This document shows positions 10,715 to 30,292 of a stretch of 32,840 nt of DNA, piece after piece (position 1 is the first letter of the stretch; each line of letters opens with the position of its first letter). Both the position numbers and the translations under genes were made by a program. The stretch comes from Myxococcota bacterium (lineage in GTDB: Bacteria; Myxococcota_A; Polyangia; Polyangiales; Polyangiaceae), in contig JAKLDZ010000012.1 of the NCBI GenBank assembly GCA_022703255.1, forward strand, positions 1 to 32,840, read 5' to 3'. The notes below the pieces were generated by a model. It was not told where the DNA came from, ran no database searches, and worked only from the letters and a program-made list of their open reading frames with translations.

Positions 10715-12016
10715 CTAGCGCAGCGCCCCCAGCATCGCCACCGTCTGCGCCATCCCCGCGCGCTCCTCCGCTCCCTGCCCCAAAAACGCCTCGATCCGCG
10801 GCATCATCGCGATCGCCGCGTCCAGCTCCCGATCCGACCCCTTCGCATACGCACCCAGCGCAATCAAATCCCGCTTGGCCTCGTACGCCCCAAGGATCGC
10901 CCTCACCCGACGCGCCGCCTGCCGATGCTCTGGTGCGATAATGCCGTCCATCACCCGCGACAACGACTGCAACACGTCCACCGCGGGATACCGCCCCCGC
11001 GACGCAATCGCACGATCCAAGACGATGTGACCGTCGAGGATGCCACGCACCTCGTCCGCGATCGGCTCGTCCATGTCCCCGCCCTCGACCAGCACCGTGT
11101 AGATCGCCGTGATCGACCCTCGCGCCCCCTGCCCGCTTCGCTCCAGGAGCCGCGGCAGCATGGCGAATACGCTCGGGGGGTAGCCGCGACGCGCCGGAGG
11201 CTCGCCCGCGGCCAACCCCACCTCCCGCTGCGCCCTCGCGAATCGTGTCACCGAGTCCACCAACAACATCACCCGCGCACCTTCGTCGCGAAAGTGCTCC
11301 GCAATCGACGTCGCCACCTGCGCCGCCGCCAGCCGCTCGAGCGCAGGCGAATCGCTCGTCGCCACCACCACCGCGCTCTTGCGCAACCCTTCCTCGCCAA
11401 GGCTGTGATCGAGGAACTCCCGCACCTCGCGCCCTCGCTCGCCCACCAGCGCCACCACTACCACCTCGGCCTCCGTCCCCCGCGCGATCGCACCGAGCAA
11501 CGTCGACTTGCCTACCCCGGAACCGGCGAACAACCCGACCCGCTGCCCTTCCCCCAGCGTGGTCAATCCGTCGATCACGCGCACACCGGTAGCCAGCACC
11601 CGATCCACCGCGCGACGCGTCAGCGCCGGTGGCGGCGGGGCCTCCACCGGCCGCAACCCTCCCGTCAGCTCCTTGCCTCCGTCGATGGGACGCCCCAGCC
11701 CGTCGAGCACCCTCCCCAATACCTCGCCGGAAACCGCCACGCCGAGCGGTGTGCCGCGCGTCCCCACCCTGTCCCCCGCGCCGACCCCCGTCAGATCTCC
11801 CAGAGGCATGGCGATCGCCTCTCCACCGTCCAACCCGACCACCTGCCCCAACAACGGCTCGCCGCGCCGGTGGATCTCGATCACATCTCCGATGCGCGCT
11901 GCCGGGAGGCTCACGCGAACGGCGAGTCCCACCACCGACTCGACCCGCCCCGCAGGCAGCAGCGTGCTGGTCTGTTCGAGACGCGCGCGAAGGTCGGACA
12001 GGTCCATGCCTCTCAC
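10715..12016 (-). CDS. FliI/SctN-type rotary export ATPase
   Basis: 433 residues, the usual size for FliI/YscN. The P-loop is 'GLFAGSGVGKST' (about 161-172). The family signature 'GYPPSVFAMLPRLLER' and 'VEGGDMDEPIADEVRGILDG' separates these export ATPases from F1-beta and Rho. 'LLVDSVTRFARAQREVGLA' is the Walker B/substrate region. Such ATPases form a hexamer that energises flagellar or type III export at the inner-membrane base. None of FliH/SctL, FliJ/SctO or any other export gene lies in the window. The GTG at 12016 has GGAG at good spacing; an ATG three codons on is the alternative. Being active without nearby partners would require export genes elsewhere. Confidence 0.9.
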   Translation of the reverse strand: MRGMDLSDLRARLEQTSTLLPAGRVESVVGLAVRVSLPAARIGDVIEIHRRGEPLLGQVVGLDGGEAIAMPLGDLTGVGAGDRVGTRGTPLGVAVSGEVLGRVLDGLGRPIDGGKELTGGLRPVEAPPPPALTRRAVDRVLATGVRVIDGLTTLGEGQRVGLFAGSGVGKSTLLGAIARGTEAEVVVVALVGERGREVREFLDHSLGEEGLRKSAVVVATSDSPALERLAAAQVATSIAEHFRDEGARVMLLVDSVTRFARAQREVGLAAGEPPARRGYPPSVFAMLPRLLERSGQGARGSITAIYTVLVEGGDMDEPIADEVRGILDGHIVLDRAIASRGRYPAVDVLQSLSRVMDGIIAPEHRQAARRVRAILGAYEAKRDLIALGAYAKGSDRELDAAIAMMPRIEAFLGQGAEERAGMAQTVAMLGALR

Positions 12017-12854: not shown

Positions 12855-15347
12855 TCACCGCACACGCGGACGCAGCGGTCCAAAGCCGTGCGCGCGCACC
12901 CAGTTGACCGTCATCCCACGGCACGCGGTGTCGTCGGCACAAGTGCGGCACCGCAGGCTCTTGGCCATGAACCCCTCGCGCGCCCACCACGACGCGAACG
13001 CATAGGGGTCGATCCGGCCGTCGTCACCCACGAGATCGAGGTCGAGCGCGAAGGGCTCGGGGACGGGCTGCTGGCCGCCGAGACAAGGAGCGATGCCGCG
13101 TGTGCGCGCACCGCGCTCCGCCACCTCGTGCAGCGCCGACGGCTCCACGTCGAGCGTGCGCGCCTCGGTGAGCCGCGCATGGGCGGGCTGGCGCACCACG
13201 AGGCGCGGACATGCCGCTGCCAGGATCGCCGGCCAGTCCTCGCGCACGGCATCCACCTCCACGGTGATCGGGGCAGGCAATCGCAGCGCACGCTCGAGCT
13301 CCGCGATCCCGACACCGCACACCGCGCGGACCGGCGTGCCCGCCAGCGCGCCGTCGGAGTCGATCGCCGCCTCGATCCACGACGTCGATCGCGTGCGAAC
13401 CCGCAGCGCACGTGCCCCGAAACGACGAGCCGCGTCGGCGCAGAAGGTCGCTTCATCCCATGCGACTTCGAGCTCTTCGCACGTGATCGCCGGAGCCGTG
13501 GAGGCGGCGCGCGAGGACACGATCAGCCGGGGCACACGCCCGGCTCGCATCGCGTCGATCGCACCTTCGAACGCGTCGCACAACCCGCGCAGGTAGCAGC
13601 GCCGGCAGCGCTCCGGCTGCCTGCAGGCGAGGGGTTGTCCCCGCTCGATCCAGGCGCGCAGCTCGCCGTCTCGCCCGCGCACTTCGTCAATCAGCTTGTG
13701 CGGGTCCTGGATCAGCGACTCGAACCCCTCGGCATGCTCGGGCGGAAAACGATTGAGCCACACGCGTGCCCCGTGACGCCTGGCGGCCTCGAGCGCCGCA
13801 CGGATCGCGTCCGCCTTGTCCTCGGGGTCGTAGAAGAGCCCTCGGTCGCGCAGGCGCCACGCGTTGCCGAAGGGGATGACGTGGAGCAGATCGAACTCGT
13901 TGACGCCCCAGCCCGCAAACGTCTCGATCATCTCCGGCAGGTGATCCACGTTGCGCCCGTTGATCACGACGTCGACGTTGACGACGATGCGTCGCGAGGC
14001 GAGGGCTGCACGCACGGCGGCGCTCGACTGCTCGAACGCTCCGGGGACACCCACGAGCTCGTCGTGCAACGCAGACGTGTGGCCGTGAAGGCTCACCGTC
14101 AGCTCACTCAGCCCGGAATCGATCGCCCGCTCGAGGAAGCCCGGCGTGCAGAACATCCTGCCGTTGGACACCGTCTGGATCCATCGGTAGCCGGCGCGCC
14201 GTCCCATGCGCACCAGGTCGAGGAAGCGCGGGTGCATCGTGGGCTCTCCGCCGGAGAGCACCAGCCGCGTGGCGCCGCGACGACGACCGTCGACGATCTC
14301 GGCGAGGATCTCCCCGGGAGCCCGGAGCCCGTTGCGTCCGTGCTCCTTGTCCAGGCAAAAGAGGCAGGCGTTGTTGCAGCCCCAGGCGAGGCGGACCCAG
14401 CAGCGCTGTTCGTGCGAGGCCTGCTCCCGCGTCTCGATCTCGTCGGCCGGATCGGCAATGACACGGGACGCCGCCCTGCGCGGGCGCAGCTCGCTCCATC
14501 CCCTGCGCGCCGCGAGCTCGCGGTAGACGCCCGGACAGCCGTCTCTGAGGGAACAGCCGTCGCACGGTTCCGGCCAGACGCGCAGCGCATCGTCGATCGG
14601 CTCGAACCCGCGATCGTGCAGCTCCGACATTCCGATGAAGCCGTGCGTGCGCAGGTCGTCGCGCAACGCCTCGAGGCCCGGGAGCAGACACAGCGGGAAG
14701 CCCTCGTGGCCGAGGCGTTGACGGCCGCGGCGGCGTGCGTGTTCGAAGGCGGAGATCACGGTCTGGCACGCTTCGGTCAGCCCGGGCACGACGGCGTCGA
14801 AGCTCGCAAGCACGGCCCCCTTGGGTTGGGGAAACGTGAGCTTCATCACGCTCTCGGGCAGCTCTCCCACCACGTCGATCATGTCGGGCACCACCGCGAG
14901 ATTGGCACGCGTGACCACGGTGTTGACCCACAGGTGGGCCACACGCCCGTGCAGCGCCCGCAGCCCGCCGAGCGTCTCGTCGAAGGCGCCGCTCACGCCG
15001 ACCAGACGATCGTGGATCTCCGCGGTGGGCGCGTGCAGCGACACGTAGGCGTAGTCGAGGCCCGCATCGAGCAGGGGGCCGATCACGTCCGGACGGCACA
15101 GCATGCGGCCGTTGGTCACCAGGCCGAGCTTCATGCCGCGGGCCTGGATGTGACGGGCGATCGCCACGAGGTCGGAGTGGAGGGTCGGCTCGCCCCCGGA
15201 CAGCACGACGGTGTCCACGCCGAGGTCACGGGCGCGATCAACCTTTTCCAGGATGCGCGCGAGGGGGTCGTCGCCGCACCGGTTCGCCGCGTGACAGAAG
15301 ACGCAGGCGTTGTTGCACCGGTGGCCGATTTTCAGAAGCGCGCGCAC
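12855..15347 (-). CDS. Tandem double radical-SAM protein with three Cys-rich modules
   Basis: 830 residues. Two complete radical-SAM domains lie in one chain: CNNACVFC (Cys11, 15, 18) with 'VVLSGGEPTLHS', and CNNACLFC (Cys324, 328, 331) with 'LVLSGGEPTMHP'. The two halves align well ('VSLHAPTAEIHDRLVGVSGAF' beside 'VSLHGHTSALHDELVGVPGAF'), indicating internal duplication. Each is followed by a CxxCx5-C cluster (Cys262/265/271; Cys581/584/590). A third such cluster (Cys800/803/809) ends a C-terminal region of about 210 residues that lacks CxxxCxxC. The Cys clusters resemble auxiliary Fe-S ligands of SPASM/twitch-type enzymes that modify peptides. The GTG at 15347 is chosen because the second domain starts at the same distance before its motif and because TAGGCT lies 7 nt upstream. 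An SMI1/KNR4 gene precedes it by 67 nt. The substrate is unknown. Confidence 0.88.
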   Translation of the reverse strand: MRALLKIGHRCNNACVFCHAANRCGDDPLARILEKVDRARDLGVDTVVLSGGEPTLHSDLVAIARHIQARGMKLGLVTNGRMLCRPDVIGPLLDAGLDYAYVSLHAPTAEIHDRLVGVSGAFDETLGGLRALHGRVAHLWVNTVVTRANLAVVPDMIDVVGELPESVMKLTFPQPKGAVLASFDAVVPGLTEACQTVISAFEHARRRGRQRLGHEGFPLCLLPGLEALRDDLRTHGFIGMSELHDRGFEPIDDALRVWPEPCDGCSLRDGCPGVYRELAARRGWSELRPRRAASRVIADPADEIETREQASHEQRCWVRLAWGCNNACLFCLDKEHGRNGLRAPGEILAEIVDGRRRGATRLVLSGGEPTMHPRFLDLVRMGRRAGYRWIQTVSNGRMFCTPGFLERAIDSGLSELTVSLHGHTSALHDELVGVPGAFEQSSAAVRAALASRRIVVNVDVVINGRNVDHLPEMIETFAGWGVNEFDLLHVIPFGNAWRLRDRGLFYDPEDKADAIRAALEAARRHGARVWLNRFPPEHAEGFESLIQDPHKLIDEVRGRDGELRAWIERGQPLACRQPERCRRCYLRGLCDAFEGAIDAMRAGRVPRLIVSSRAASTAPAITCEELEVAWDEATFCADAARRFGARALRVRTRSTSWIEAAIDSDGALAGTPVRAVCGVGIAELERALRLPAPITVEVDAVREDWPAILAAACPRLVVRQPAHARLTEARTLDVEPSALHEVAERGARTRGIAPCLGGQQPVPEPFALDLDLVGDDGRIDPYAFASWWAREGFMAKSLRCRTCADDTACRGMTVNWVRAHGFGPLRPRVR

Positions 15348-15414: not shown

Positions 15415-16023
15415 TCAGGTCCAGTGGCCGGCGCGCAGGGCCGCGAGATCGATGGGACGGATCTTGGGCGCCAACGCCTCGCGGAACACGTCCTCGTCGT
15501 CAACGCCGATCTCGGCCTGACCGAACCCCTCCGCGACCTCCATGGCCGCGGCGAGGATCTGCAGGAACTGCACGAAGCTCGAGGCCGCCAGGTTGGGCTC
15601 CCACCGGTCGGTCCCGCTCATCGCGGTGTACACCGGGCAGTCACCCTCCGCGTCGAGCTTCGCCACGTCGAGGAAGTAGGGATCGCCGAGCAAGGCACTC
15701 TGACCAATGACGACCCACGTCCTCCGCCAACCACCATCCTTGTTCGCTTCGATGAGCGTCAAGTCGTCGTGGAGCGCAAAGCCGACCTGCTCACGCAACA
15801 GCTCCTCTGCGGGCAGCAGACGGATGCGTTCCACCGGCGTGGCGGTCTCGACGCGGATGGGGTTGGACTCGAGCAGGAAGGCCCGGTAGCGCGCAGGGAG
15901 CTTGAACAGCTTGCGCGGCTGGTCGAGGACTTCTGCCGGAGCCTTTCCGAACTCGCAGCGGATCGAACGTCGCTCAAAGGTGGTCTTGAGAGCGGCGACA
16001 GCATCGTGCAGATCGCTATCCAC
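15415..16023 (-). CDS. SMI1/KNR4 (SUKH)-type protein
   Basis: 202 residues from GTG at 16023, with GGAGG 8 nt upstream; the frame stays open 159 nt further but the Shine-Dalgarno decides the start. SUKH features are 'LFKLPARYRAFLLESNPIRV' near the N-terminus, 'TWVVIGQSALLGDPYFLDV', 'CPVYTAMSGTDRWEPNLAAS' and 'SFVQFLQIL'. SUKH proteins bind partner proteins and many are immunity proteins to secreted toxins, while others act as general regulators. No toxin gene is seen here. The gene lies 67 nt upstream of the radical-SAM gene on the same strand and could be its partner. A TAGGCT hexamer (minus strand, 16080-16085) with a weak -35 is a possible promoter. Confidence 0.78.
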   Translation of the reverse strand: MDSDLHDAVAALKTTFERRSIRCEFGKAPAEVLDQPRKLFKLPARYRAFLLESNPIRVETATPVERIRLLPAEELLREQVGFALHDDLTLIEANKDGGWRRTWVVIGQSALLGDPYFLDVAKLDAEGDCPVYTAMSGTDRWEPNLAASSFVQFLQILAAAMEVAEGFGQAEIGVDDEDVFREALAPKIRPIDLAALRAGHWT

Positions 16024-17102: not shown

Positions 17103-19784
17103 CTACGAAGCCCACTCCCGCTGCGCATCGCGGATCGCCGCGACCAGCTCGTGGGATGCGGATCGGTGCGCCAGGTCGGCGGCTTCCTGCAGGTAGCTCA
17201 TCGCATCGCCAGCCCGCTGCCTCGCCCGCGCCACGCGCGCCAACGCGAAGAGGACCTTCGCCCGGTCTTCGCCCGACGGCGGCGCGAGGTCGAGCGCCTC
17301 GCGCAACACTCCGTCGGCATCGGTGAGGTCGCCATCGCGCGTGAGCGCCTCTCCCAGCTTGCGGCTGAAGATGAGCACGGCCCGCATCGGATCGTCGATC
17401 TCACCTCTGGAGATCTCTCTTCGCGCCAGCTCCAGCCCCCTGCGCAGGTGCAACACCGCGCCGGCTACGTCGGCACGCGAGCTCGCCAGGTCGCCCGCCT
17501 GCTCGAGCAGCAGCAAGGCCTCGAAAGAGTCCTGCGCGGAGAACGCGTGCAGCGCCCGCGCTTCGAGCGGGAGGTTCAGCTCGGCACCGAGACTCATCGC
17601 GGCCACGTGCAGGTCGCGCCGCGCGCCGGCAGGGATGGTCACCTCGGCGATCTCGCGAATGAGCGGGTGCGCAATGCTGACCATGCCGTTGTGGGACGCC
17701 ACCATCCCAGCCTGGGTGAGCATCGCGAGGCTCGCGGACACGTCGATGGATACGTCCACTACGCCCTGGATCAGCCTCGGTTGGATGCGGTCGCCAAGCA
17801 CCGACAGGGTCTGCAAGACCCTGCGCTCGCCGGCGTTGAGGCGCGCAATGCGCAACGCAACGATATCGGCGAGGCGCGGCGGGGGCTGCGTGCCCCCTTC
17901 CTGGTTGAAGCGCACGAGCTGCTCGACATACATCGGCGGCACGCCGCGCGCCGCCATCGCCTCGAAGGCATCCGGAGGCACCGCGCCGTTGAGCATGTGC
18001 GACGCGATGTCCGGCGCCAACCCGTTGAGCACCGTCGACGGGAGACGACCCGGCCAGTGCGCGTCGAACCCGGTCGAATGCGTCGCCACGACCAGCCCCT
18101 CGACCGTGCACTTGTCCGAGATCACGTCCACCACCGCGTTGCGCGAGGCGCCGTCTACTCGGTGCAAATCCTCGACCACCAGCAGGATCGGCTTGCCCGT
18201 GCGCTCCCGCGCCGTACGCAACGCCCACCGCAGCGTGTCGGCTACCCAACGACGTCGCAGCTCCGGATCGATGGGAACCGGTGAGGTGCGCTCGCCGCGG
18301 TTGAACATCCCGTGCAGCACGCGCCGAACCTCGGCAGGAGCGGGAGGCCACTGGGCGTCGGACGCATCGACCTCCACACCGGCGAGCTCTGCCACCGCAT
18401 TGCGCAGGGCGTAGTAGCCGACCTCGGACCAGAACGGATCCGGTCCGGTCACCACCGTGCCGTCGGGCTCTCCGGCCACTTCCAGGAACTCGCGCAGCAG
18501 ACGGGTCTTGCCCATGCCAGGCTCGCCGATGACGCGCGCCGCGACCAGCCCGGCGCTGCCATCGCGCTGCCGCTCCAGCAGCCAGGTCAGCTCGCTGTCG
18601 CGCGCCGTCAACGGCATCGCCCCCAGCACCGTCGCACCGCTCCGACTCTTGGAGGAAGGGGCCGCTTGCGCGGGCGACGCAGACACCACACCGCCTGCTC
18701 CGGTGGTGGCAAGCCTCGCTCCGCAGTCTCCACAGAAACGCTGCGTCCGCGGCTGCGCCGAACCGCACTCCGGACAGTGAATCGAGGCCGGGTCTGGCGG
18801 CGCTACACTCGCCCGCTGCGTCGGTGCCTCCAACTGCGCTTGCACCGCGCTCAGCGCGTCGGAGAACGCCTCGGCAGTCTGGTACCGATCGCCCGCGTTC
18901 TTCGCGAGAGCGCTGAGCGTGACCATCGCCAGCGCCGCAGGGATGTCCCTGTCCGGCGCAATCGCACGCGGATCGGGCGCCGGCACCGTCATGTGCATCA
19001 GCACCACCTGCGTCGGCGATTCCGCTTCGTACGGCAGCTGCCCCGTCAAAAGCTGGAACAGGATCACGCCCATCGCGTACAGATCCGCACGCGCGTCGAT
19101 CGTGTCTCCCCGCCCCTGCTCCGGTGCCATGTAGTCGGGCGTGCCGCACACGATCCCAACACTCGTGATCGCCGGCCCCTTGGCGCCGGTCAGCATCTTC
19201 GCCAGCCCGAAGTCCACGACCTTCACGAAGTCGCCCCCGGTCCGCATCGGCTCGATCACCACGTTCTCGGGTTTCAGATCCCGATGGATGATCCCGATGT
19301 GGTGGGCTTCCGACAGCGCCGCGAGCACCTGCTTGAGAATCTCGATGATGCGACGGAACGGCAGCGGCCCGTCCTCGTACAGAACCCGCGCCAGATCCCT
19401 CCCACGCAGGAACTCCATCACCAGATACAGCTGACCACCGTCCGTCTTGCCGAAGTCGATGACCGACACCGAGTTCGGGTGGTTCAGACGGCTCGCCGTC
19501 CGCGCCTCCGTGATGAACCGCGCCGCCGCACTCTCGTCCCCCGCCAGGTGCGGATGGATGATCTTCACCGCCACCGTGCGTCCGAGTGCCGTCTGCTCCG
19601 CACGGTACACACGCCCCATCCCCCCGACGCCGATCGGCTCGAGGATCACGAACCCGCCCGGCAACGTCGTGCCGAGGAGCGGGTCCTCTTCGCTGCGCGC
19701 AACCTCGCCGATAGGGAACCCGCATGCGGGACAAAAGCGGTGCGTCGAGTCGCACTCATGGCTGCACTGCGGGCAATCGGACAT
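17103..19784 (-). CDS. Zinc-ribbon Ser/Thr kinase with AAA-type ATPase and helical-repeat C-terminus
   Basis: 893 residues. A zinc ribbon with two CxxC knuckles comes first (about 4-21). A complete Hanks-type kinase follows: glycine loop 'IGVGGMGRVY' (51-60), Lys74, 'IIHRDLKPEN' (165-174), DFG (191-193) and 'APEQG'. A second zinc ribbon (about 337-354) precedes an AAA/STAND-like ATPase with P-loop 'GEPGMGKT' (420-427) and a Walker-B-like 'ILLVVEDLH', and an all-helical TPR-like C-terminus with Ala-rich pairs ends the protein. Kinase-ATPase fusions of this type are signalling proteins expanded in Myxococcota. No transmembrane segment is seen, so it is cytoplasmic. The start at 19784 begins right at the first ribbon; TAGGGT lies 10 nt upstream and no Shine-Dalgarno is present. 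It is divergent from the MshEN gene (145 nt). Confidence 0.9.
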   Translation of the reverse strand: MSDCPQCSHECDSTHRFCPACGFPIGEVARSEEDPLLGTTLPGGFVILEPIGVGGMGRVYRAEQTALGRTVAVKIIHPHLAGDESAAARFITEARTASRLNHPNSVSVIDFGKTDGGQLYLVMEFLRGRDLARVLYEDGPLPFRRIIEILKQVLAALSEAHHIGIIHRDLKPENVVIEPMRTGGDFVKVVDFGLAKMLTGAKGPAITSVGIVCGTPDYMAPEQGRGDTIDARADLYAMGVILFQLLTGQLPYEAESPTQVVLMHMTVPAPDPRAIAPDRDIPAALAMVTLSALAKNAGDRYQTAEAFSDALSAVQAQLEAPTQRASVAPPDPASIHCPECGSAQPRTQRFCGDCGARLATTGAGGVVSASPAQAAPSSKSRSGATVLGAMPLTARDSELTWLLERQRDGSAGLVAARVIGEPGMGKTRLLREFLEVAGEPDGTVVTGPDPFWSEVGYYALRNAVAELAGVEVDASDAQWPPAPAEVRRVLHGMFNRGERTSPVPIDPELRRRWVADTLRWALRTARERTGKPILLVVEDLHRVDGASRNAVVDVISDKCTVEGLVVATHSTGFDAHWPGRLPSTVLNGLAPDIASHMLNGAVPPDAFEAMAARGVPPMYVEQLVRFNQEGGTQPPPRLADIVALRIARLNAGERRVLQTLSVLGDRIQPRLIQGVVDVSIDVSASLAMLTQAGMVASHNGMVSIAHPLIREIAEVTIPAGARRDLHVAAMSLGAELNLPLEARALHAFSAQDSFEALLLLEQAGDLASSRADVAGAVLHLRRGLELARREISRGEIDDPMRAVLIFSRKLGEALTRDGDLTDADGVLREALDLAPPSGEDRAKVLFALARVARARQRAGDAMSYLQEAADLAHRSASHELVAAIRDAQREWAS

Positions 19785-29137: not shown

Positions 29138-30292
29138 CTATCGACGGGTCTTGCGTCCCCGACGCCCTTTCGAGTGCCGGGTCGTGGAACGCTTCTCCGG
29201 CGCATCGGGCGCTTGCGTCGCGCTCCCCGGCGGCGCCGCGGGCCCTGACGACATCGCCGGTGACGGCGTGGTCCCGCGATCCTCGGTGGGACCGTCGGGC
29301 CAATCCTTCGCACACCGGAACCCGCTCATGATCAACCGGAACCGCCCGGGATGGTGCACCCGGTTCGAGCTGCGCAACCCGAACGCGTCGTAGTTGAACG
29401 CCCCCCCACGCAGCCCGTGCTCGCACTCGTCCGGAATCGGGTTCGACCCCGTGAACCCCTCCTGGTTCGCGTGCTTCAGCTCCTTGAGCGTCGCCATGAT
29501 CTCGTCACACGTCCCCACCTGCCCCTGCGCCGCCCCGGGCCGGCGATACGCATACGGATCGTACATGTCCGCCAGCCACTCCCACACGTTCCCCGCCAGG
29601 TCCTGATGCCCGTAGGGCCCGGCCCCTTTCGGGTGCGTGCCCACCTCTTCCGTGATCGACGACGCGAACACCGCGTGCTCGCGTGTCGGCTGCTCGTTGC
29701 CCCACGGGTACCTGCGCCCGTCGGACCCTCGCGCTGCCCGTTCCCACTCGGCCTCCGTGGGCAACCGCTTGCTCACCCACTTGCAGTACGCCGCCGAATC
29801 GGCCTGCGAAATGCTGCTGATCGGACGCTTCGGCGTACGAAACTTCTCGTCCTTGCCGAACTTGTTCGCCTCCGACGACCCCGGAAAGTGCTTGCGACAC
29901 ACCCCCGCGTCCACGCACTTGAAGTACGCCTCGTTCGTCACCTCGGTCTTGTCGAGCAGAAACGGCTTCAGCGTCACCGCGTGCACCGGCCATTCGTCTT
30001 TCTGCGACCCGCGCCCCTCGTACCCCATCTGGAACGTGCCCCCGGGAACCCCGAGCATGTCCTGTGGAATCACGGTCGCGCTCGGCCCCGCCTCCACCGC
30101 TGCATCCGGTTCCGGGACGCCGGCGTCGGGAGTCGCGGAAGCGCTCGACGGTGGCAGCGCAGGCGCAGCGCTCGCCGAAGCGGACGTCGTGGGCGAAGGG
30201 GCCGAAGCCTCGGGTGCGCGGGGAGTCGAGTTCGAGCAAGCCCCGGCGGCTGCGACCAGGGTGAGGATCAGCAAGGGGCGGCCAGCGACCAT
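29138..30292 (-). CDS. SUMF1/formylglycine-enzyme-fold lipoprotein
   Basis: 384 residues. The signal peptide ends at 'AAAGAC' (Cys19), a weak lipobox. A disordered Ala/Ser/Pro linker spans about 20-75. A C-type-lectin-like SUMF1 domain covers about 78-345: 'VPGGTFQMGYEG', 'TEVTNEAYFKC', 'RLPTEAEWERAARG', 'YPWGNEQPT', 'DLAGNVWEWLAD', 'GLRGGAFNYD' and 'SGFRCAKDW'. The C-terminus is basic. True formylglycine-generating enzymes have a catalytic cysteine pair near the end of the domain, which I do not see, so a structural, regulatory or other role is more likely. Such SUMF1 lipoproteins are numerous in myxobacteria, often near protein kinases; one kinase gene begins about 500 nt away. It is divergent from trxA. 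Confidence 0.85.
   Translation of the reverse strand: MVAGRPLLILTLVAAAGACSNSTPRAPEASAPSPTTSASASAAPALPPSSASATPDAGVPEPDAAVEAGPSATVIPQDMLGVPGGTFQMGYEGRGSQKDEWPVHAVTLKPFLLDKTEVTNEAYFKCVDAGVCRKHFPGSSEANKFGKDEKFRTPKRPISSISQADSAAYCKWVSKRLPTEAEWERAARGSDGRRYPWGNEQPTREHAVFASSITEEVGTHPKGAGPYGHQDLAGNVWEWLADMYDPYAYRRPGAAQGQVGTCDEIMATLKELKHANQEGFTGSNPIPDECEHGLRGGAFNYDAFGLRSSNRVHHPGRFRLIMSGFRCAKDWPDGPTEDRGTTPSPAMSSGPAAPPGSATQAPDAPEKRSTTRHSKGRRGRKTRR

Follow-up and report, generated by a model that had tools for sequence, protein, structure and literature searches.

A fused radical-SAM protein of Myxococcota with two intact units and a probably decayed third one as a likely maturase of the HxsA4-type His-Xaa-Ser system

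The fused gene and its surroundings

The window, by which we mean the whole stretch of 32,840 nucleotides analysed here (contig JAKLDZ010000012.1 of the Myxococcota bacterium assembly GCA_022703255.1), carries on its minus strand a gene at 12855..15347 that is a single open reading frame with a GTG start and without internal stops, encoding 830 aa. Open reading frame, domain and homologue evidence mark the product as a fused radical-SAM protein, all parts of which are given here with positions on the same minus strand. Unit 1 (residues 1-291; 14475..15347) is by Pfam, alignment and tree an A-type radical-SAM unit with an auxiliary four-cysteine site; its SAM cluster motif, C11-x3-C15-x2-C18 (CNNACVFC; 15294..15317), and the auxiliary site of C220, C262, C265 and C271 (14535..14690) are invariant in 30 sequences of the unit 1 type. 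Unit 2 (residues 313-606; 13530..14411) is by Pfam, alignment, tree and HMM a B-type radical-SAM unit, with the SAM cluster motif C324-x3-C328-x2-C331 (CNNACLFC; 14355..14378) and a second auxiliary site of C575, C581, C584 and C590 (13578..13625). Unit 3 (residues 604-830; 12858..13538) is, according to profiles, an AlphaFold model and structure searches, probably a degenerate radical-SAM unit without the SAM cluster, and contains the third auxiliary site, C755, C800, C803 and C809 (12921..13085). The motif and site of unit 2 and the site of unit 3 are invariant in 44 B-type sequences.

A sequence-only reading of this DNA had proposed two intact radical-SAM units in one chain, and this was borne out: Pfam Radical_SAM matched the protein in two stretches (142.7 bits), and in units 1 and 2 the CX3CX2C motif that defines the superfamily lies within the PF04055 domain and GGEPT is also present, while unit 3 is without the motif. 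The domains carrying CNNACVFC and CNNACLFC can be aligned with each other, as had been stated (31% identity over 299 columns, E 3e-31). The three CxxCx5C clusters that had been pointed out (262/265/271, 581/584/590 and 800/803/809) were also confirmed, and to each of them we add an invariant upstream cysteine (220, 575 and 755, respectively) that completes it. A C-terminal cysteine set of the Twitch/SPASM type is found three times by alignment, as putative auxiliary-cluster sites; Pfam gave no match to the SPASM family in the fused protein. Judging from its sequence, this is a radical-SAM enzyme with sites for auxiliary clusters, and there would be room in the chain for two SAM clusters and three auxiliary ones. 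The full-length structure model is weak at residues 227-299.

Upstream of the fusion by 67 bp and on the same strand is a gene for a 202-aa SMI1/KNR4 (SUKH-1) protein (15415..16023), which is kept beside the fusion in 4/4 assemblies. In each of the four genomes with the fusion, its surroundings include conserved SUKH, kinase and MshEN-domain genes, and in three of the four also a UPRTase-like gene. No His-Xaa-Ser (Hxs) genes are present within the 32.8-kb window. Its other minus-strand genes include an export ATPase of the FliI/YscN family (10715-12016; 557 bits to SctN, which is below the cut-off of that model, the family cut-off being exceeded), a Ser/Thr kinase with AAA and zinc-ribbon parts (17103-19784) and an FGE-sulfatase domain protein (29138-30097).

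Origin from two protein families

In most related Myxococcota the counterpart of unit 1 belongs to a separate gene, the product of which (family A) combines unit 1 with a second Cys domain and with a methyltransferase of class I. Proteins of family B, consisting of units 2 and 3, were found in 60 of 144 relatives, and A and B are often adjacent, with a 4 bp overlap in several genomes. The form in the window joins the radical-SAM domain of A to the N-terminus of B. It is present in four of the 144 relatives (the window's genome, one congener and two further genera), and the occurrence of the fused reading frame in three independent assemblies, with 47-56% identity over the chain, rules out an assembly artefact. 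Among the 80 best relatives in a scan of GTDB r220, the fused genes were again these three, so the fusion is rare. The listed relatives belong to Myxococcota or are MAGs with no label more precise than Deltaproteobacteria. Genes in relatives were called with a simple codon-bias caller. The possibility that the homologues are simply two proteins fused in one strain, raised beforehand as an objection, was half right: most genomes do encode two separate proteins, but four assemblies from three genera have retained the fusion. The same SUKH and kinase neighbours in all four fusion genomes suggest a single fusion event.

In the tree, the fused unit 1 groups with A (99/98) and the fused unit 2 with B (100/99), which rules out that units 1 and 2 arose by tandem duplication inside this chain. 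The idea of three ancestral units has to be divided: it holds by sequence for the C-terminal part of unit 3 (see below), but the units did not originate as siblings in a single chain. On this phylogenetic evidence the ancestral two-unit protein is B, a radical-SAM unit with the degenerate unit, and the fusion brought unit 1 to it.

Each of the four fusion genomes additionally encodes an A-like protein without CX3CX2C in which the methyltransferase domain is kept (A'); an intact A was not found in any of the four. In the sequence set examined, unfused A proteins with a radical-SAM domain have always kept the SAM motif; several genomes have an A from which the entire radical-SAM domain is missing. 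With long branches, A' falls outside the group of A and the fused unit 1 (98/90), and it may be either the decayed donor or an older paralogue. One further A' was seen alongside an intact A in a genome of another family (G112); this A-like protein (G112:C500:1947-3608, minus strand) has 54% identity to the motif-less A' of the window's genome, which may reflect horizontal transfer or contamination.

Nature of the third unit

The sequence-only reading had regarded the third unit as one that lost its SAM motif and kept an auxiliary-cluster or substrate-binding part, based on the matching endings GWSELRPR of unit 1 and GFGPLRPR of unit 3, and this resemblance proved real. Compared as single sequences, units 1 and 3 have 9/29 identities in BLAST (E 0.04), and when unit 3 (39 sequences) is compared with unit 1 (30 sequences) in hhalign, P is 8.9e-5 and the probability 60%, IAPCL-GG of unit 3 being paired with FPLCLLPG of unit 1 together with the CxxCx5C tails. 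The profile score of 37.9 was reached by 0/100 column-shuffled unit-3 profiles (mean 14.6, sd 2.4, max 26.0), and in this control run the last 43 columns of unit 3 were aligned with unit 1. We conclude from these sequence comparisons that the C-terminal part of unit 3 is homologous to a radical-SAM unit. For the part before IAPCL, no profile signal was obtained against unit 1 (42/100 shuffles equal or better) and a weak one against unit 2 (1/100 shuffles). The third ancestral unit is therefore supported by sequence for its C-terminal part only, as the N-terminal half is without demonstrable homology to unit 1.

An HMM of the radical-SAM unit (299 positions), built with unit 3 excluded and then run against unit 3, matched two relatives with its own positions 137-298 (E 1.2e-8 and 2.7e-6) and other relatives with roughly its last third; in the window protein's own unit 3 it aligned over 32 positions, which is non-significant (E 0.34). 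The AlphaFold model of unit 3 (pLDDT 94.9, pTM 0.90) is a small beta/alpha barrel, in which strands alternate with helices and a Cys-rich tail follows. Such a fold would also agree with a beta/alpha barrel of unrelated origin to which a twitch-like cysteine tail was added, as Foldseek with the model gave nothing at E <= 0.001, the best matches in VIA were generic TIM barrels (best Z 9.0), and the stretch before IAPCL is without profile signal to unit 1. We find this unlikely, as the radical-SAM profile reaches well into the barrel in the two relatives and the barrel part weakly matches unit 2. No radical-SAM chain is among the structure matches listed for unit 3 by Foldseek and VIA, and a PDB sequence search with it gave weak matches to designed TIM barrels only. 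Taken together, the match to the end of unit 1, the profile reaching to mid-unit in relatives and the modelled barrel make a decayed radical-SAM unit the best reading, and unit 3 as a whole is probably of this kind.

Association with the His-Xaa-Ser system and proposed function

The occurrence of B coincides with that of the HxsA4 precursor, which consists of a leader, then (SHG)n and a terminal W. Among the 144 relatives, 55 have both B and HxsA4, five B only, none HxsA4 only and 84 neither, and in four of the five with B only there is an HxsA4 match below the cut-off. The corresponding counts (both, B only, Hxs gene only, neither) are 57/3/0/84 for HxsD_rel and 56/4/4/80 for HxsB; the counts were tallied by hand from the profile-search tables, and Fisher P is <= 5e-30 with kinship among the genomes uncorrected. 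An Hxs gene was found in 28 of 80 loci (mean 16.7 kb) chosen solely by a B match, and 13 of these have an HxsA4-like ORF. In several relatives the unfused A and B adjoin hxs genes: one gene run (G123, locus L042) holds an HxsA4 peptide, HxsC4, B, an HExxH hydroxylase-cluster gene and A, and another (G018, L076) HxsD, HxsD_rel, HxsB and B. The proteins encoded near A and B in relatives include HxsB (539.7 bits, cut-off 370), HxsD_rel (64.1, cut-off 41), HxsC4 (567, cut-off 500), HxsA4 peptides (111.8 and 85.2, cut-off 55), an HxsD-like protein under its cut-off (37.9 bits against 50) and an aKG-HExxH-type peptide beta-hydroxylase (85.3 bits, cut-off 40). The position of this hydroxylase between B and A supports a peptide substrate. 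It was seen there at L041:10118-11251 (+) and L042:7840-9096 (+), the latter by clustering.

That the enzyme might modify peptides had been suspected from its cysteine clusters, and the co-occurrence and linkage with HxsA4, HxsB and HxsD agree with this. The earlier remark that there is no precursor peptide nearby is correct for the window, but the genome does encode an HxsA4 precursor on another contig (C301; 89.1 bits, cut-off 55). As it also has HxsB (543.1 bits, cut-off 370) on contig C157, in one operon with two radical-SAM proteins, HxsD and HxsD_rel, the window's own genome encodes both precursor and HxsB of an HxsA4-type system; no HxsC4 was found in this genome, which is 73.5% complete. 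Canonical HxsA (TIGR03979) was rejected as the precursor, with over-cut-off matches in 0/144 relatives; weaker HxsA-like matches adjoin HxsB in genomes without B, among others. Beside the radical-SAM genes of Hxs loci we observed a family of ~150-190 aa proteins, several with Tat-like signals (L073:14765-15289 (-), L050:7112-7600 (+), L084:13979-14524 (-) and L099:5971-6450 (-)), which in the window's genome adjoins the HxsA4 peptide and of which the one member searched had no Pfam or NCBIfam match. A ClpB-like AAA+ ATPase, under the ClpB cut-off, is another recurrent neighbour in hxs operons (L073:15442-18075 (-) and L071:4221-6848 (+)).

We consider it probable that the fused protein is an HxsA4-type Hxs peptide maturase, in which the radical-SAM domain of A has been fused N-terminally to B. 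Against this, the fused gene and hxsB are on different contigs in three of the four fusion genomes; in the fourth (G016), hxsB is ~9.7 kb from the fused gene. Other radical-SAM proteins of the fusion genomes could be the ones acting on HxsA4. An alternative would be a double radical-SAM enzyme that acts on a small molecule or on another peptide, is found in Hxs genomes incidentally and has its real pathway in the SUKH, UPRTase-like and kinase genes. This would account for the neighbours conserved around the fusion and for the non-adjacent Hxs genes, and BlsE, a cytosylglucuronate decarboxylase, is the best sequence and fold neighbour. FbiC (FO synthase), in which two radical-SAM domains in one chain make two 5'-deoxyadenosyl radicals for one product, gives a precedent for such an enzyme on a small molecule (PMC11917521). 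Still, we regard this explanation as distinctly improbable, because B is present in every genome with an over-threshold HxsA4, and because the unfused A and B of several genera are in operons with HxsA4, HxsB, HxsC4, HxsD or the aKG-HExxH hydroxylase. The SUKH/UPRTase/kinase block was likewise rejected as a pathway common to the unfused homologues, since in the loci examined it was not seen around them. Being a CofG-CofH fusion with separate genes in other organisms, FbiC resembles the fused protein in its layout but differs in having a small molecule as product. FbiC is not known to have a degenerate third unit or a set of three auxiliary sites. The CofG/CofH family is not among the best 25 of the 66 NCBIfam families matching the fused protein.

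Of known families, HxsC and HxsC4 are the most similar, being the best profile matches by score and sharing the HxsA/HxsB/HxsD context and a radical-SAM unit with a C-terminal Cys site. The fused protein is neither of them, as its scores, summed over two units, are under both cut-offs: 152.7 bits against the equivalog cut-off of 267.9 for HxsC (TIGR03977) and 193.2 against 500 for HxsC4 (NF038332), the latter profile giving 87 bits for unfused A and 120.5 for B. The true HxsC4 is in contrast a separate ~343-aa protein of the same systems (567 bits), and in the tree A and B form clades separate from it and from canonical HxsC. The HxsA4 system (NF038313; HxsB TIGR03978, HxsD_rel NF038315) co-occurs and is often linked with A and B, but A, B and the fusion match no curated part of it and would be additional maturases; among the matches listed, no NCBIfam model is above its cut-off for A or B. 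Besides BlsE, the fold neighbours of the model are SkfB and SuiB, Twitch/SPASM maturases which likewise have a radical-SAM barrel followed by a Cys-rich auxiliary-cluster part but contain a single radical-SAM unit each. Both of these have an N-terminal RRE domain (PMC8326336), and for the fused protein there was no Pfam match to an RRE domain.

Our best reading is an additional, fused maturase of an already known peptide system, and for such an enzyme the following mechanism may be proposed. In radical-SAM enzymes the CX3CX2C cluster cleaves SAM to yield a 5'-deoxyadenosyl radical, and auxiliary clusters may accept an electron. This electron acceptance has been observed for AuxI of SuiB (PMC9012708). 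Units 1 and 2 would each bind a SAM [4Fe-4S] cluster and cleave SAM, and each may modify the repeat peptide by initiating a radical at one of its residues, the electron probably being taken up by the unit's own four-cysteine auxiliary cluster. From the co-occurrence and gene linkage we infer that the substrate is HxsA4, on which both units would act, and with two active sites in one chain the long (Ser-His-Gly)n substrate would meet both activities without leaving. Unit 3 would make no radical and, with its auxiliary cluster kept, would most likely serve in electron relay or peptide docking. It is also conceivable that one SAM unit is catalytic on the peptide and the other structural or reductive, the fusion securing a 1:1 ratio of partners rather than a two-step catalyst. 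The A-type radical-SAM domain is indeed dispensable elsewhere, as seen in the A proteins without it and the motif-less A', but neither the two SAM motifs nor the two GGE motifs vary among the fused proteins and within their families, and this option seems rather unlikely to us. In the fullest version of our proposal, two catalytic units and a decayed one, together holding up to five Fe-S clusters, would act along a single (Ser-His-Gly)n peptide, with the decayed radical-SAM unit as electron relay or peptide clamp, and the donor enzyme would have lost its SAM cluster after the fusion while keeping its methyltransferase. This version is tentative and somewhat less probable than not.

In the open-access literature we found no paper describing the chemistry of any Hxs peptide, and no work was found in the literature on Hxs proteins with several radical-SAM units. 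The HxsA4 system would gain two uncurated maturase families, A and B, together with a probable case of a decayed radical-SAM unit that has retained its auxiliary-cluster site, and the natural fusion suggests which two enzymes work together. As named strains of Polyangium, Nannocystis, Plesiocystis and Enhygromyxa are among the relatives, knockouts and isolation of the product may be feasible.

Chains with several radical-SAM domains are recurrent in these genomes. Proteins of ~755-775 aa with two radical-SAM regions, the N-terminal one resembling B12-binding radical-SAM proteins and the C-terminal one HxsC, are encoded at L043:9016-11283 (+), L048:6937-9216 (-) and L049:3414-5738 (-), the last of these being from the window's genome and missing the second SAM motif; matches to them were found near B in 43/80 loci. 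Further two-radical-SAM chains near B, some with one SAM motif absent, are at L139:7486-9345 (-), L040:1-3315 (-), L226:9080-12328 (+), L216:525-2417 (+) and L207:1317-3242 (+). An 802-aa protein (L220:9871-12279 (+)) combines a B-type radical-SAM unit, a unit-3-like stretch and a further radical-SAM domain with CRNACTFC; it seems to have arisen as a separate three-unit fusion with the units arranged differently.
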